Shown here: piece after piece, positions 23,868 through 30,229 of the stretch
Numbering within the stretch: position 1 is the first letter of the stretch
Layout of the letters: every line of letters begins with the position of its first letter
Source of the DNA: Herbiconiux sp. A18JL235
GTDB taxonomy: Bacteria; Actinomycetota; Actinomycetes; Actinomycetales; Microbacteriaceae
DNA length: 64,000 nt
Direction: 5' to 3'
NCBI RefSeq assembly: GCF_040939305.1
Contig: NZ_CP162511.1
Location: 1,984,001-2,048,000 of the forward strand
The notes under the pieces: model-generated
The model's database searches: none
What the model saw: only the letters and a program-made list of their open reading frames with translations
Told to the model about the DNA's origin: nothing
Translations under genes and position numbers: made by a program

Positions 23868-23938
23868 AAGACCCGTTCCTGTGCGTGGTGCAGTAGCTCT
23901 GATGAGGCTGCGACGAACCAGCACTTGACATGGGTCTT
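23868..23938 (+). promoter_or_regulatory. structured RNA leader or promoter region upstream of sigA
   Basis: The 169 bp between the MFS gene and sigA is unusually A/T-rich for this genome and can fold. An outer stem AAGACCC (23868-23874)/GGGTCTT (23932-23938) encloses an 8-bp stem with one bulged G (GTGC, 23881-23884, plus TGGT, 23886-23889, against ACCAGCAC, 23917-23924) and an inner hairpin GCAG/CTGC (23890-23893/23908-23911). A TTGACA hexamer lies at 23925-23930 but no good -10 box follows at 16-18 bp. The structure ends 90 nt before the sigA ATG. Confidence 0.4.
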
Positions 23939-24028
23939 AGTACTGTCCAAAAACATCTTCACGTGGCGGATCGCTTGCCGGGGGAACGCACTCAACTCCT
24001 CACCCCACGTGGCATGAAAGGTGATCTC

Positions 24029-25342
24029 ATGGCCACCCCCAAGTCCGCCGACACCCTCGAGACGGCAGTGGCGCCCGACGAGACGGAGTCGGTGAAGGCC
24101 GCAGCCGCGCCCAAGCGCGCCGCCGCGAAGCGAGCACCCGCCAAGAAGGCGGCGTCGAAGGCGAGCCCGAAGAAGGCCTCGAAGGTCGACGACGACGCTG
24201 AAGACGAGATCGACGAGGAAGAGCTCGACGACGAGGCCGACGGCGACACCGCCGAGGCCGACACCGACGCCACCGACGCGGACTCCGCCGACACGGATGC
24301 CGAGGGCGACTCCGACGACGAGGCCAAGAAGGCCCCTGCCGCTGCCGAGGAGGCGCTGCCGAGCGGTGCCCTGGTGCTCTCGCTCGTCGACGACGAGGAC
24401 GACGTGCCCGTCTACTCGACGACGATCACGGGCGCGACCGCCGACCCGGTGAAGGACTACCTCAAGCAGATCGGAAAGGTGGCGCTGCTCAACGCCGCCG
24501 AAGAGGTCGAGCTCGCCATGCGCATCGAGGCGGGTCTGTTCGCCGAAGACAAGCTGGCCACCACCGAGAACCTCAGCCCCTCGGCCAAGCGTGAGCTGCA
24601 GTGGGTCGCGAAAGACGGTCAGCGCGCCAAGAGCCACCTGCTGGGCGCGAACCTCCGTCTCGTGGTGTCGCTCGCCAAGCGTTACACCGGCCGCGGCATG
24701 CAGTTCCTCGACCTCATCCAGGAGGGCAACCTCGGCCTCATCCGCGCGGTCGAGAAGTTCGACTACACCAAGGGCTTTAAGTTCTCGACGTACGCGACGT
24801 GGTGGATCCGCCAGGCCATCACACGCGCCATGGCCGACCAGGCGCGCACGATCCGCATCCCGGTGCACATGGTCGAGGTCATCAACAAGCTCGCCCGCGT
24901 GCAGCGCCAGATGCTCCAAGACCTGGGCCGCGAGCCCACGCCCGAGGAGCTGAGCCGCGAGCTCGACATGACCCCCGAGAAGGTCATCGAGGTGCAGAAG
25001 TACGGCCGCGAGCCCATCTCGCTGCACACCCCGCTCGGTGAAGACGGCGACAGCGAGTTCGGCGATCTGATCGAAGACACCGAGGCGGTCGTGCCTGCCG
25101 ACGCCGTGGGCTTCACCATGCTGCAGAAGCAGCTGGAGTCGCTGCTCGACTCGCTGTCGGAGCGCGAGGCCGGTGTCATCCGGATGCGCTTCGGGCTGGG
25201 CGACGGCATGCCCAAGACGCTCGACCAGATCGGTGACACCTTCGGCGTGACGCGAGAGCGCATCCGTCAGATCGAGTCGAAGACCATGGCGAAGCTCCGC
25301 CACCCGTCGCGATCGCAGTCGCTGCGCGACTACCTCGAGTAG
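24029..25342 (+). CDS. sigA: primary sigma factor of RNA polymerase
   Basis: 437-residue housekeeping sigma-70 (SigA/HrdB type). The N-terminus is a Lys/Ala-rich then strongly acidic low-complexity segment (region 1.1 area, about 1-130). Region 1.2 ([16 protein letters not shown]), region 2 ([37 protein letters not shown]), region 3 ([18 protein letters not shown]) and region 4 ([20 protein letters not shown]) are complete. The ATG at 24029 follows AAAGGTG at proper spacing; an ATG five codons earlier is possible. murT begins 4 bp after the stop. Confidence 0.97.
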
Positions 25343-25346
25343 GCCG

Positions 25347-26669
25347 ATGGGTCTGCGAACCACGGCGGCGGTTCTCGTCGGGCGTGCCGTGCGCGTCGCT
25401 GCGCGGTTGCGCGGCGGCGGCTCGGCGATACCGGGAAACATCGCGCTGCGTATCGATCCCGGGTTCCTCGAGCGCACGATCGCCGCTATCCCCGACGGTG
25501 TCGTCGCGGTGTCGGGCTCGAACGGCAAGTCGACCACCACGAACATGCTCTCGGCGATCGTGCGTGCGCACGGTCTCTCGGTGTTCACGAACCCCTCGGG
25601 CGGCAACCTGCCGCAGGGCATCGCCTCTGCCCTGCTCTCCGAGGTATCGGTGTCGGGCAAGCTCGACTCCGACATCGCCGTGCTCGAGGTCGACGAGGGA
25701 TACGGCACGCGCCTGGCCGAGCTGCTGAAGCCGAAGACGGTGCTGCTGCTCAACATCCAGATCGACCAGCTCAACCGGTACCACGAGCCCGATCGCGTCG
25801 CCGCCATGCTGGGCCGGGTCGCGGCGAGTTCGACCGAGGGCCTCATCCTCAACCGCGAAGACAACTTCCTCGTCGATCTCGACCAGCAGATCCCGGCCAA
25901 GGCCGGTCGTGCGGTGTCGTTCTTCGGCGGCGTGCCGGCGCTCGTGGAGCCGGCGAGCCACGGAGTGGCGTCGGCCGATCGTTTCGGCGAGTCGGCGGCG
26001 AGCCCTGGTTCGCGCCCCGCGGCCGTCGAGGTGGTCGCGCTGAACGGCGCCCGGGCGACCCTCGCCATCGAGGGCGCTGTGCTGCCGACTTCGGGTGTGG
26101 CCGAGCGCACCGAGATAGAGGTGCGGCTGCCCGCCCGTGGACTGCACTACGCGCTCGACGCGGCCGGTGCCGCGGCCGCGGCACGCAGCGTGCTCGGGGC
26201 CCGCTTCAAGCCGGCACTCGTGACCGCCGCCCTCGACTCGCTCGCCACCGTGTACGGACGCGGGGAGATGCTCGTGGTGAACGGCGAGCAGATCGAGATC
26301 ATCATGATGAAGAACCCGGCGAGCCTGCAGCTGAACCTCGACTCGCTGGAGAGTGCGCCGGAGCAGGTGTTCCTGGCGGTCGACGAGGGAACCCCCGACC
26401 CTTCGTGGATCTACGACATCGACTTCTCCGCACTCGATCACGTCGACGGCATCACGGGATCGAAGGCGTGGCAGTTCGCGGTGCGCTTCGGGTATCTCAG
26501 CATCCCGGTCGGGTCGGTCGACCTCGACGTGCGGGCGGCGCTCAAGGCGTTCCTCGCCTTGCCGAAGCCCTCGACCGGACACAAGGTGATGATCCTCAAC
26601 TACGAGCAGATGATGGACATCCGCAAGATCCTGGGCTTCAAAGAGCTCGAGGGCGGGGGAGCGGCATGA
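25347..26669 (+). CDS. murT: MurT-like Mur ligase, zinc ribbon lost
   Basis: 440 residues of the MurT family. With GatD it normally amidates the D-Glu alpha-carboxyl of lipid II using ATP and glutamine. Seen: Walker A GSNGKSTTTNML (57-68), Mur ligase core VLEVDEGYGTRL and LLNIQIDQLNRYHEPDRVA, and the C-terminal domain with SWIYDIDF. Two things are missing: the four-Cys zinc ribbon between the ATPase lobes (the whole protein has no Cys), and the NDxxADG part of the C-terminal motif, which here reads VDEGTPDPSW. Stop and gatD start overlap (ATGA), so the two are coupled; sigA lies 4 bp upstream. The Mur ligase ATP site looks functional. Confidence 0.88.
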   Translation: MGLRTTAAVLVGRAVRVAARLRGGGSAIPGNIALRIDPGFLERTIAAIPDGVVAVSGSNGKSTTTNMLSAIVRAHGLSVFTNPSGGNLPQGIASALLSEVSVSGKLDSDIAVLEVDEGYGTRLAELLKPKTVLLLNIQIDQLNRYHEPDRVAAMLGRVAASSTEGLILNREDNFLVDLDQQIPAKAGRAVSFFGGVPALVEPASHGVASADRFGESAASPGSRPAAVEVVALNGARATLAIEGAVLPTSGVAERTEIEVRLPARGLHYALDAAGAAAAARSVLGARFKPALVTAALDSLATVYGRGEMLVVNGEQIEIIMMKNPASLQLNLDSLESAPEQVFLAVDEGTPDPSWIYDIDFSALDHVDGITGSKAWQFAVRFGYLSIPVGSVDLDVRAALKAFLALPKPSTGHKVMILNYEQMMDIRKILGFKELEGGGAA

Positions 26670-27409
26670 CCGGCAGTGCTCTGCGCATCCTCCACCTGTT
26701 CCCCCGGCTGCTCGGGCTGAACGGTGAGGCCGGCAACGTCGAGATCCTGAGGCTGCGCGCGGAGTGGCGCGGGCTGCCCGTCGAGGTCACCCGCTACGAC
26801 GGGGGCGAGCCGGTCGGCTTCGCGGATGCCGATCTCGTGTTCATCGGAAGCGGACCGGTCTCGGCAGAGGTGATCGCGCATCCGCTCGTGCTGACGATCG
26901 CGGCCCCGCTGCGGGAGCTCGCGGCCGACGGTGTGCCTTTCCTGGCGATCGGCGCCGGGTTCCAGCTGCTCGGCGAGAGTGTGACCCTCGAGAACGGCGA
27001 GGTGCTCGAAGGCGCCGGGGTGTTCCCCGTCACGACCCGCCACGGCGGCACCCGCGTGGTGGGCGATTTCGTGCTCGACTCGCCCCGGCTCGGTCCCGTC
27101 GTCGGCTTCGAGAACCGCGGCTCGTTCGTGGAGGTCGGCCCCCACGAGACCCTCGGCCGGGTCGTCTACGGTCGCGGCAACACCGAGACCCCCGGCAACG
27201 AGGGCTTCTGGGAGGGCAACCTGCTCGGCACCCACATGCACGGGCCGCTCCTCGCGAACAACCCCGTCATCGCCGACTCCCTCCTCGACACCGCCCGTCT
27301 CCGCCGCGGACTCGACTACACCACCCCCGACCCCGACGCCCTCCGCGTGATCGACGAGCGAGCCCGCCAGGCTCGCGCGACCATCGCCGCTCGGCCGCTG
27401 AGCGAGTAA
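26666..27409 (+). CDS. gatD: GatD-like glutamine amidotransferase lacking its catalytic Cys
   Basis: 247 residues of the GatD (CobB/CobQ-type class I glutaminase) family. Seen: LRILHLFPRLLGLNGEAGNV at the N-terminus, the nucleophile-elbow region FLAIGAGFQLLGESV and the His region GTHMHGPLL (His190/192). In active GatD the elbow reads ICGGYQLLG; here the Cys position is Gly96 and the protein contains no Cys at all, so it cannot release ammonia from glutamine by the usual mechanism. The DNA (ATC GGC GCC GGG TTC) is unambiguous. Genuine gene: coupled to murT, full length, in frame. Confidence 0.88.
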   Translation: MTGSALRILHLFPRLLGLNGEAGNVEILRLRAEWRGLPVEVTRYDGGEPVGFADADLVFIGSGPVSAEVIAHPLVLTIAAPLRELAADGVPFLAIGAGFQLLGESVTLENGEVLEGAGVFPVTTRHGGTRVVGDFVLDSPRLGPVVGFENRGSFVEVGPHETLGRVVYGRGNTETPGNEGFWEGNLLGTHMHGPLLANNPVIADSLLDTARLRRGLDYTTPDPDALRVIDERARQARATIAARPLSE

Positions 27410-27719: not shown

Positions 27720-29807
27720 CTAGACATCGATGCGCTCGCGCGAGAGCGCGTCTGATCCCTGGATGATGAACTCCTTGCGGGGGGCGACGTCGTCGCCCAT
27801 GAGGAGGTCGAACATGTGCTCGGCGGCCGCCGCGTCGGCGACTCCGACGCGGCGGAGGGTGCGGTAGCGCTTGTCCATGGTGGTGGAGGCGAGCTGGTCG
27901 GCGTCCATCTCGCCGAGGCCCTTGTAGCGCTGGATGGGGTCTTGGTAGCGGCGGTTCGACTTCTTGAGCGATGCCAGCACACCCTGCAGTTCGGCCTCGG
28001 AGTAGGTGTAGATGGTCTCGTTCGGCTTGGAGCCGGGGTTGATGGCGACCACCCGGTGCAGCGGCGGGACGGCCGCATAGACCCTCCCGTCTTCGATGAG
28101 GGGGCGCATGTAGCGGAAGAACAGGGTGAGCAGCAGGGTGCGGATGTGCGCCCCGTCGACGTCGGCGTCGCTCATCAGGATGATCTTGCCGTACCGGGCC
28201 GCCGACAGGTCGAAGGAGCGGCCGGAGCCCGCCCCGATGACCTGGATGATCGACGCGCACTCCGCGTTCGAGAGCATGTCGGCCACCGTGGCCTTCTGTA
28301 CGTTGAGGATCTTGCCACGGATGGGCAGCAACGCCTGGAACTCGCTGTTGCGGGCGAGTTTCGCGGTGCCGAGCGCGGAGTCGCCCTCGACGATGAACAG
28401 CTCGCTCTGCGCGACGTCGCTGCTGCGGCAGTCGACGAGCTTCGCGGGCAGCGACGATGACTCGAGTGCGTTCTTGCGGCGCTGGGTCTCTTTGTGGGCG
28501 CGCGCCGAGATGCGGGACTTCATCTCGGCGACGACCTTGTCGAGCACGAGCGCGGTCTGCGCCTTGTCGTCGCGCTTGGCCGACGAGAACCGCTCGGCGA
28601 GCCCCTTCGTGACGACGTTGGAGACGATCGCACGAACGGCGGGCGTGCCGAGGATCTCCTTCGTCTGCCCCTCGAACTGCGGTTCGGGCAGACGCACGGT
28701 GAGCACGGCGGTGAGCCCGGCGAGCACGTCGTCTTTCTCGAGCTTGTCGTTGCCGACCTTGAGCCGGCGAGCATTGGCCTCGACGGCCTGCCTCAGGAAC
28801 TTCAGCAGGCCCGCTTCGAACCCGGCCTGGTGGGTGCCGCCCTTCGGGGTCGAGATGATGTTGACGAAGCTGCGGAAAGCGGTGTCGTAGCCGACGCCCC
28901 AGCGCAGAGCAAGGTCGACGGTGCACTCCCGGGTGAGCTCGGTGGGCACCATCGCCCCGCTGTCGCTCAGCACGGGCACGGTCTCCTTGAAGGTGCCGCT
29001 GCCCTGGATGCGCCAGATCTCGGTAAGGGGTGAGTCGGTGGCGAGGTGGTCGACGAATTCTGAGATGCCTCCCTCGAACCGGAAGGAATCGGTGCGGGGC
29101 TCGTCGCCGCGTTCGTCGTCGATGCTGATCTCGAGGCCCGGAACGAGGAACGCGGTCTGCCGCGCGCGCACGAGGAGCTCGTCACTCTGGAACTCGGCGC
29201 CCTTCGTGAAGATCTGCCTGTCGGCCCAGTAGCGCACCCGCGTGCCCGTCTTCGCCTTGGCGACCTTGCCGACGACCCGCAGTTCGCTGCGCTTGTCGAA
29301 CGGGGTGAACGGCGCATCCGGGCTGGGTTCCTTGCCGCCGTCGTCGAAGACGCCGGGCTCGCCGCGGTGGAACGACATGGCCCAGGTCTTCCCGTCGCGG
29401 TCGACCTCGACATCGAGCCGTTCGGAAAGGGCGTTCACCACCGAGGCGCCCACCCCGTGGAGGCCACCGGATGCGGCGTACGATCCCGACCCGAACTTGC
29501 CGCCCGCGTGCAGCTTGGTGAACACGACCTCGACGCCCGAGAGCCCCGTCTTCGGTTCGATGTCGACCGGGATGCCCCGGGCGGTGTCGCGCACCTCGAC
29601 GCTGCCGTCGTCGTGCAGCACGACGCCGATGGAGGTGCCGTGGCCGGCGAGCGCCTCGTCGACGGAGTTGTCGATGATCTCCCAGAGGCAGTGCATGAGG
29701 CCGCGCGAGTCGGTCGACCCGATGTACATGCCGGGGCGTTTGCGCACCGCCTCGAGCCCTTCGAGCACGGAGAGGTGTCTGGCGGAGTAGTCGGACGCTG
29801 ATGCCAC
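27720..29807 (-). CDS. parE: type IIA topoisomerase B subunit (ParE/GyrB-like)
   Basis: 695-residue ATPase subunit of a second gyrase/topoisomerase IV. Seen: GHKL ATPase motifs EIIDNSVDEALAGH, DTARGIPVDI, GGLHGVGASVVNALSE, and the QTK-loop region; TOPRIM motifs IVEGDSALGTAKLARN, LPIRGKILNVQKA and MSDADVDGAHIRTLLL. Where gyrases have EGDSAGGSAK, this has SALGTAK. The partner parC lies upstream on the same strand, separated by a small gene on the other strand. GTG start with a leaderless -10 box. Naming ParE follows actinobacterial usage; supercoiling versus decatenation cannot be told from sequence. Confidence 0.92.
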   Translation of the reverse strand: MASASDYSARHLSVLEGLEAVRKRPGMYIGSTDSRGLMHCLWEIIDNSVDEALAGHGTSIGVVLHDDGSVEVRDTARGIPVDIEPKTGLSGVEVVFTKLHAGGKFGSGSYAASGGLHGVGASVVNALSERLDVEVDRDGKTWAMSFHRGEPGVFDDGGKEPSPDAPFTPFDKRSELRVVGKVAKAKTGTRVRYWADRQIFTKGAEFQSDELLVRARQTAFLVPGLEISIDDERGDEPRTDSFRFEGGISEFVDHLATDSPLTEIWRIQGSGTFKETVPVLSDSGAMVPTELTRECTVDLALRWGVGYDTAFRSFVNIISTPKGGTHQAGFEAGLLKFLRQAVEANARRLKVGNDKLEKDDVLAGLTAVLTVRLPEPQFEGQTKEILGTPAVRAIVSNVVTKGLAERFSSAKRDDKAQTALVLDKVVAEMKSRISARAHKETQRRKNALESSSLPAKLVDCRSSDVAQSELFIVEGDSALGTAKLARNSEFQALLPIRGKILNVQKATVADMLSNAECASIIQVIGAGSGRSFDLSAARYGKIILMSDADVDGAHIRTLLLTLFFRYMRPLIEDGRVYAAVPPLHRVVAINPGSKPNETIYTYSEAELQGVLASLKKSNRRYQDPIQRYKGLGEMDADQLASTTMDKRYRTLRRVGVADAAAAEHMFDLLMGDDVAPRKEFIIQGSDALSRERIDV

Positions 29808-29998: not shown

Positions 29999-30229
29999 AT
30001 GCACACCGTTGCAACAGAACCCGGCGCTGTTTCCGATCTCGAGAACGCTTACCAGCTCACGGCGGCCGACCGCTGCGACAGCTGTGGAGCGCAGGCCTAC
30101 ATCCGCGTCGACATGCCGTCGGGAGCCGAGTTGCTCTTCTGCGCGCACCACGGTCGCAAGTACCAGGAGAAGCTCTCCCAGGTCGCGACCGGCTGGCACG
30201 ACGAGTCGTCCAAACTGCTGAACGACTAG
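29999..30229 (+). CDS. DUF7455 small zinc-finger protein
   Basis: 76 residues, recognised as the DUF7455 family of small actinobacterial proteins. Zinc ligands: CDSCG (about residues 26-29) and CAHHGRKY (about 48-51). Strong ribosome site AAGGAG seven bases before the ATG. It is encoded on the strand opposite to parE and parC and sits exactly between them, an arrangement I recall as common in actinobacteria. Function unknown; the zinc finger could be structural. Confidence 0.85.
   Translation: MHTVATEPGAVSDLENAYQLTAADRCDSCGAQAYIRVDMPSGAELLFCAHHGRKYQEKLSQVATGWHDESSKLLND

Follow-up and report, generated by a model that had tools for sequence, protein, structure and literature searches.

A MurT-GatD pair without the glutaminase nucleophile after sigA in Herbiconiux: a candidate amino-acid ligase of the Microbacteriaceae cell wall

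The window analysed here, a stretch of 64,000 nucleotides from Herbiconiux sp. A18JL235 (contig NZ_CP162511.1, positions 1,984,001 to 2,048,000), carries a murT-gatD gene pair whose GatD has glycine in place of the nucleophilic cysteine of the glutaminase. The pair is probably an amidase turned into an amino-acid ligase, a reading to which we give a probability of roughly 0.57, its chemistry being inferred from the sequences. An earlier note on the same DNA had proposed MurT-GatD as the missing ligase of the type-B cross-bridge. Corrected, the claim would be that the Microbacteriaceae have at least two ligases lacking a functional glutaminase, which replace each other in the position after sigA, and that MurT-GatD is one of them.

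GatD without a nucleophile and its MurT partner

The GatD of the window was aligned with GatD of Staphylococcus aureus (5n9m/6gs2) at an E value of about 1e-38. Residue 96, the counterpart of S. aureus Cys94, is Gly, and Cys occurs nowhere in the protein, which agrees with the earlier note. His192 is the equivalent of the catalytic His189 of S. aureus, and Arg130, the glutamine-capturing arginine (R128 in S. aureus), is present. His190 stands in place of a Tyr that is invariant in 137/137 Cys-type pairs. The PF07685 score is 70.5 bits (cut-off 27), and the NCBIfam equivalog scores stay under their cut-offs (145.8 versus 450 and 91.4 versus 400 bits). An AlphaFold2 model reached a mean predicted local distance difference test (pLDDT) value of 95.6; its closest match in the PDB was S. 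aureus GatD (6gs2_A, template modelling score 0.88), with the class I glutamine amidotransferase (GATase) fold. A PHROGs search gave no match.

The ratio of non-synonymous to synonymous substitution rates (dN/dS), determined for six within-genus pairs, was 0.20–0.32 for gatD and 0.13–0.21 for murT. Thus gatD is under purifying selection, and its reading as a pseudogene was rejected on this value. At the nucleophile column of the window protein and 120 homologues (those listed of 347 found), Ala occurs 67 times, Gly 43, Ser 5, Thr 4 and Cys 2, the two Cys exceptions being P0093 and P0118. Because of this column, the dN/dS values and the confident model, Gly at the nucleophile position is neither chance nor decay. 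The claim that gatD is intact and coupled to murT likewise holds, and its ATG shares the bases ATGA with the murT stop. No second GatD was found in the window genome by profile search, and the only MurT_C match there is the murT of the window. The other PF07685 match of the genome was considered as a second GatD and rejected, as it reads by eye as PurQ.

The Cys-less GatD is not confined to the window genome. The Microbacteriaceae sample comprised 149 genomes; 122 have MurT and/or GatD, and 101 of these were read at residue level. A tree was built from 282 loci with both proteins at usable length, reduced to 230 pairs after identical GatD cores were dropped. Its non-Cys tips form two clades, clade 1 with 78 Microbacteriaceae pairs and clade 2 with 15, and two changes to Cys loss with no regain were inferred. 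Among the 101 genomes, 73 have a clade 1 pair only, three a clade 1 pair plus a Cys copy and 14 a Cys copy only, while eight carry the 'FTHNALEVLG' type and three have other clade-2 types. Outside the family, residues were read in 71 of the 75 genomes from the order that gave a full-length-type match (13 more matches were weak) and in 66 of the 116 with matches from the phylum beyond the order. Cys is present in 131 of these 137 genomes; the remaining six, from families f55 and f34, have 'GNA' instead. This 'GNA' class consists of L456, L457, L458, L461, L463 and L464, from two families of the phylum. Four of the six could be placed in the tree and fell in clade 2 with the 'FTHNALEVLG' class of Microbacteriaceae; the MurT of the other two was cut, and they were omitted from it.

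Two observations on distribution stand beside this. Canibacter sp. lx-45 (L032, G005) has a very divergent sole GatD with 'FNNALDILG', and two genomes of the same genus label have a Cys-GatD. Of the 248 genomes sampled across the order, the majority showed no MurT-GatD, which is at odds with PMC6085368, where the murT-gatD operon is stated to be universal in Actinobacteria. Many families of the order, Micrococcaceae-like ones included, showed no MurT or GatD, so that a second comparison set was not available.

Across clade 1, the glutaminase centre of GatD has been lost. Neither the nucleophile Cys nor Tyr19 occurs in any of the 78 pairs, and the oxyanion-region Gly62 is kept in four. Arg130 is kept in 75/78 and His192 in 53/78. 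The statement that His190, His192 and the fold are preserved is therefore right for the window protein and fails for the clade, where His192 is gone in 25/78. The residue roles used here, among them that of a GatD Tyr as the plug of the ammonia passage, were taken from PMC5871853, PMC6085368 and PMC6113224.

MurT has kept its catalytic residues. Its Pfam scores are 30.6 bits for MurT_C (cut-off 25) and 41.9 bits for the Mur ligase middle domain (cut-off 24), and its NCBIfam equivalog scores lie under the cut-offs (108.8 and 95.7 bits, each versus 800). The P-loop reads SGSNGKST. The window MurT has no Cys, hence no Cys4 zinc ribbon, an element found in only a subset of MurT proteins. K61, N87, E114, D116, E117, R305 and D351 are conserved in 78/78 clade 1 pairs, and they cover the P-loop Lys for the phosphate, the Mg-binding acids and the acceptor-carboxylate Asn. 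Window Asn87 is probably the equivalent of Asn85 of Streptococcus pneumoniae, the presumed acceptor-carboxylate contact in PMC6085368. These residues agree with the claim that MurT is conserved as the activating ligase. On the other hand, the gate Arg is found in 0/78, and the adenine-pocket Asn pair, assigned through alignment to 6fqb, is replaced by Tyr268 in 71/78 and Asp271 in 77/78 (window positions 26148–26159). Because both adenine-pocket Asn residues became Tyr and Asp, the clade 1 MurT may have switched from ATP to another nucleotide. A new conserved Mg-binding His in the MurT loop was sought by eye in the alignment and was not conserved. Judged by its residues, the clade 1 pair consists of a ligase that has been conserved and a glutaminase half that has been remodelled.

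The gene slot after sigA

The genes of the slot and its neighbours in the window are as follows.

25347..26669, + strand: murT, Mur-ligase-type activating subunit of 440 aa (Pfam Mur_ligase_M and MurT_C; catalytic residues kept)
26666..27409, + strand: gatD, partner subunit without glutaminase centre, 247 aa (PF07685, PDB matches, residue reading)
26951..26953, + strand: codon of Gly96, the site of the S. aureus nucleophile Cys94 (alignment)
23930..25342, + strand: sigA, gene of the primary sigma factor, which bounds the slot on its left (neighbour comparison across genomes)
27720..29807, - strand: parE/gyrB-type topoisomerase gene, right-hand neighbour of the slot (name judged by eye)
29999..30229, + strand: small conserved gene, here termed orf30k (comparison with relatives)

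The murT gene starts 4 bases past the end of sigA, and parE lies downstream of gatD on the opposite strand. In the window orf30k lies beyond parE, but in most relatives seen it lies between the slot and parE. With sigA as query, a match was obtained in 48/48 genomes searched.

The position after sigA separates the two kinds of pair. sigA is immediately upstream on the same strand in 83/89 non-Cys murT-gatD loci versus 0/47 Cys loci. In 81 of the 83 the distance from sigA to the aligned start of MurT is at most 56 bases, and in the other two it is 153 and 338 bases. The six exceptions comprise two loci with sigA one gene further up (G067, with orf30k between, and G112, with cofE between), two second copies in G111 and G145, where the first copy does lie at sigA, and two genomes with murT-gatD elsewhere (G005, G049). 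Ten of the 14 Cys-only genomes were examined, and in all ten orf30k and/or parE comes directly after sigA. The association of the Cys-less GatD is with this slot and the genes that it holds rather than with type-B peptidoglycan as such.

Genomes without the pair mostly hold a different ligase in the slot. Forty sigA-downstream loci were read, 28 of them from genomes without detected MurT or GatD, and 23 of these 28 carry a protein of about 232 aa that matches PF01996, the F420-0:gamma-glutamyl ligase family. The remaining five are G017, G047 and G110 with no insert, G045 with other genes, and G040, where the contig ends and CofE is on another contig. The slot protein scores 50.2 bits with PF01996 (cut-off 25) and 34.9 bits with the cofE equivalog (cut-off 180.65). 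A CofE-like profile (A3) matched 24/149 genomes of the family, 21 of them strongly, and gave no match in the window genome. The 122 genomes with MurT or GatD and the 21 with strong CofE do not overlap. Among the 21, the search for MurT/GatD used three profiles in 16 genomes and two in the other five (G126, G127, G128, G133, G147); weak partial GatD-profile matches in G047, G091, G110 and G135 were taken as other GATases. A further 8/8 CofE-bearing genomes of the family were likewise without MurT/GatD. Under genus label g78, CofE occurs in 7/10 genomes and MurT-GatD in 3/10.

The same arrangement was seen in titled CofE records, considered as the best 80 of at least 559. Within these 80, most are from Microbacterium, with Salinibacterium, Microcella, Yonghaparkia and others also present. 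The CofE-like gene lies within 74 bases of sigA in 79/80 of the loci, MurT/GatD is found in 0/80, and Alr-type genes occur in 41/80. An Alr-type gene also lies between the Cys-less gatD and parE in 15/31 wide loci, a share that is not a rate because several loci were chosen for an Alr already seen there. A PF14397 ATP-grasp protein was found between cofE and orf30k in three CofE loci without detected Alr (L310, L326, L327).

Outside the family, the CofE domain is the C-terminal part of frames of 809–1016 aa in 21/248 order genomes, none of which has MurT or GatD. Eight of these fusions were read, and the two tested with Pfam contain GATase_6/7 and asparagine synthase (Asn_synthase) domains. 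The N-terminal glutaminase Cys is kept in 5/8 (families f17 and f6) and gone in 3/8, all of family f12. The f12 fusions (L283, L284, L288) have MSAIAG, MSGISG or no such motif, and the PP-loop motif is altered in two of them. In the other families read, both ligases mostly occur with a glutaminase; in Microbacteriaceae both mostly occur without it. The strongest point against ammonia as the present nucleophile is that MurT-GatD and CofE both mostly stand without the glutaminase here. Mixed rows were also seen: sigA-cofE-murT-gatD-alr-alr in L292 (G112) with a Cys-less pair, cofE-murT-gatD in L282 (G049), and murT-gatD-cofE in L464, outside the family. The side-by-side position of CofE-like and Cys-less murT-gatD genes suggests sequential steps in one pathway.

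Proposed chemistry, wall types and alternative explanations

In the proposed mechanism, MurT would act on the wall precursor and phosphorylate D-Glu (or 3-hydroxy-Glu) at its alpha-carboxyl. GatD would have ceased to make ammonia, yet stay as an obligatory partner of MurT and as the port that admits a free amino acid to the acyl-phosphate. Given the wall type of Herbiconiux, the acceptor would most likely be D-2,4-diaminobutyrate (DAB for the amino acid in general), supplied by an Alr-type racemase, and the product would be the first bond of the type-B cross-bridge. The family would then have at least two interchangeable solutions, MurT-GatD and the stand-alone CofE-like ligase of the same sigA slot. 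Published mutants lend the mechanism plausibility. According to PMC3266927, S. aureus GatD C94G together with MurT keeps NH3-dependent ligation at pH 8.5 and loses the glutamine-dependent activity, and MurT alone is inactive. These data imply that GatD can still be needed, as a subunit for the entry of an amine, after its Cys has become Gly. The idea of an amino acid in place of ammonia therefore gains genomic support from the slot, the alternation with CofE and the racemases, while its mechanism is plausible and only partly supported.

Wall chemistry fits in part. No named enzyme that places the type-B bridge on D-Glu was found in the open-access literature searched. In the B2gamma wall of Clavibacter, D-DAB joins D-Glu to D-Ala (PMC9603630), and the wall of Subtercola, a genus with Cys-less GatD, is B2gamma with DAB (PMC5945732). 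D-diamino bridges fit a racemase beside the ligase. Among CofE genera, the types given in PMC7033078 are D-Orn B2beta for Homoserinimonas, Lys, Orn and type B for Salinibacterium, D-Lys B2beta for Frigoribacterium, and DAB for Cryobacterium and Lacisediminihabitans. The Salinibacterium and Homoserinimonas records have CofE in the locus and no MurT-GatD there; one Salinibacterium metagenome-assembled genome has a Cys-less GatD (P0089). A split between DAB walls with MurT-GatD and Orn/Lys walls with CofE was considered and dropped, since Cryobacterium and Lacisediminihabitans carry CofE with DAB and the one Salinibacterium assembly has a Cys-less GatD while other Salinibacterium have CofE. Lysinibacter (G021) has Cys-GatD only and L-Lys in its wall (PMC7033078); it is neutral for the bridge link.

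Several observations weigh against the pair being a bridge ligase. Leucobacter has cross-link type B with DAB (PMC4804768), and its GatD is of the Cys type; in a separate listing of 120 homologues of this type, nearly all of the named ones are from Leucobacter, and no Cys-less copy was found in three genomes of that genus label. Six Cys-less GatDs lie outside Microbacteriaceae. Neither system was seen in 6/149 genomes of the family (G108 is counted among them because the hit lists do not contain it), and a weaker CofE-like gene coexists with MurT-GatD in G049, G112 and G134, so that exclusivity weakens at low score. No Alr lies between gatD and parE in 16/31 wide loci, and the tandem Alr-type pair of the window genome sits away from the slot (C1:3498156-3499918). 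An N267Y exchange, probably at one of the adenine-pocket Asn sites, is reported to inactivate S. aureus MurT. The muropeptides of Clavibacter were described by mass spectrometry with 'amidation or hydroxylation of D-Glu' (PMC9603630), and by this statement a B2gamma wall may have part of its alpha-carboxyls amidated.

Two earlier expectations did not survive these data. Cys loss does not track type B across relatives: the equation of the two is rejected by Leucobacter, by the CofE users, including type-B Salinibacterium and Homoserinimonas, and by the Cys-less GatDs outside the family. Nor can MurT-GatD be called the missing B-type ligase, given also that the Microbacterium seen mostly have CofE and that the six genomes of the family have neither system.

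The amidation reported for Clavibacter would be expected if the pair were still a D-Glu amidase fed by free ammonia, with the dead GatD only stabilising MurT. The S. aureus pair with C94G does amidate lipid II with NH3 at pH 8.5 where MurT alone fails, but no NH3-dependent activity was reported at pH 7.5 (both PMC3266927), and the D-DAB bridge of Clavibacter sits on D-Glu itself. Such an amidase would also leave unexplained both the unrelated glutaminase-free ligase in the same slot and the racemase neighbours, and we consider it unlikely. The pair could instead ligate an amino acid at another carboxyl, or as a second residue after another ligase. The row of L292, the Cys-less murT-gatD beside cofE in L464 and the ATP-grasp protein in three CofE loci tested speak for such a later step; however, both rows belong to clade 2, no CofE-like match was obtained in the window genome, and Asn87, the probable acceptor-carboxylate contact, is kept in 78/78. 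This reading is judged quite unlikely.

Relaxed constraint, with walls that need no amidation and an operon kept as a relic or for structure only, would account for the variation of His192 and other pocket residues across the clade and for the 6/149 genomes with neither pair nor CofE. It is very improbable against dN/dS values of 0.13–0.32, invariant MurT catalytic residues and open frames beside sigA throughout the family. That GatD hydrolyses glutamine through a different nucleophile is hardly credible. No point in its favour was found, neither GatD nor MurT contains a Cys, and in S. aureus C94S is reported inactive in amidation, C94G in glutamine-dependent amidation, and C94A and H189A in glutamine deamidation. 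The ligation of a free amino acid by MurT-GatD is the reading we prefer.

Relation to known ligases and meaning for the family

The window pair resembles the MurT-GatD of S. aureus, S. pneumoniae, S. pyogenes and mycobacteria in operon order, GatD fold, P-loop and Mg-binding acids, and it shares with them the acceptor Asn, the hinge Arg, the MurT Asp facing GatD and the glutamine-capture Arg of GatD. Unlike these systems, it is without the nucleophile Cys, the plug Tyr, the Cys4 zinc ribbon and the gate Arg, its oxyanion-region Gly is changed, its adenine-pocket Asn pair has become Tyr/Asp, and it lies after sigA. CofE is an enzyme that makes an amide bond to an amino acid, and its Pfam family is distinct from those of MurT and GatD. 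The slot protein matches this family but stays far under the cofE equivalog cut-off, and nothing points to an F420 role. The AsnB-CofE fusion of other Actinomycetales is, like MurT-GatD, an amide ligase joined to a glutaminase domain; MurT-GatD was found beside it in none of 21 genomes, and it differs from the window GatD in keeping the N-terminal glutaminase Cys in 5/8 read. FemX/FemAB, which are tRNA-dependent, and the D-Asp ligase of the ATP-grasp type likewise extend the stem peptide with bridge amino acids; their site of addition is the third residue and not D-Glu.

A wider proposal is tentative, and we put it at less than even chances. It holds that a wall amidase became a cross-bridge ligase, by dispensing with its glutaminase, more than once, as MurT-GatD in two clades, as the CofE of Microbacterium and its relatives, and perhaps as the f12 fusion. 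The sigA-parE interval would then be a swappable ligase-racemase cassette, exchanged even under the single genus label g78 and holding the long-missing type-B enzymes, with a choice that perhaps leans on the bridge residue. Its probability was reduced because the link from ligase to bridge residue has counter-examples. Gly is reported in the wall of two Brachybacterium strains (PMC6090031), which might fit the Cys-less f12 fusions; this is only a lead.

The findings bear on annotation, since proteins of this kind go by the name of lipid II isoglutaminyl synthase, or of cobyric acid synthase, in the sources. They also offer two unrelated candidate type-B bridge enzymes in one gene slot, together with candidate racemases. 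If the reading of MurT-GatD as an amino-acid ligase is true, the family would present a simple evolutionary route from an amidotransferase to an amino-acid ligase, in which the supply of ammonia is dropped and an amino acid is admitted in its place.

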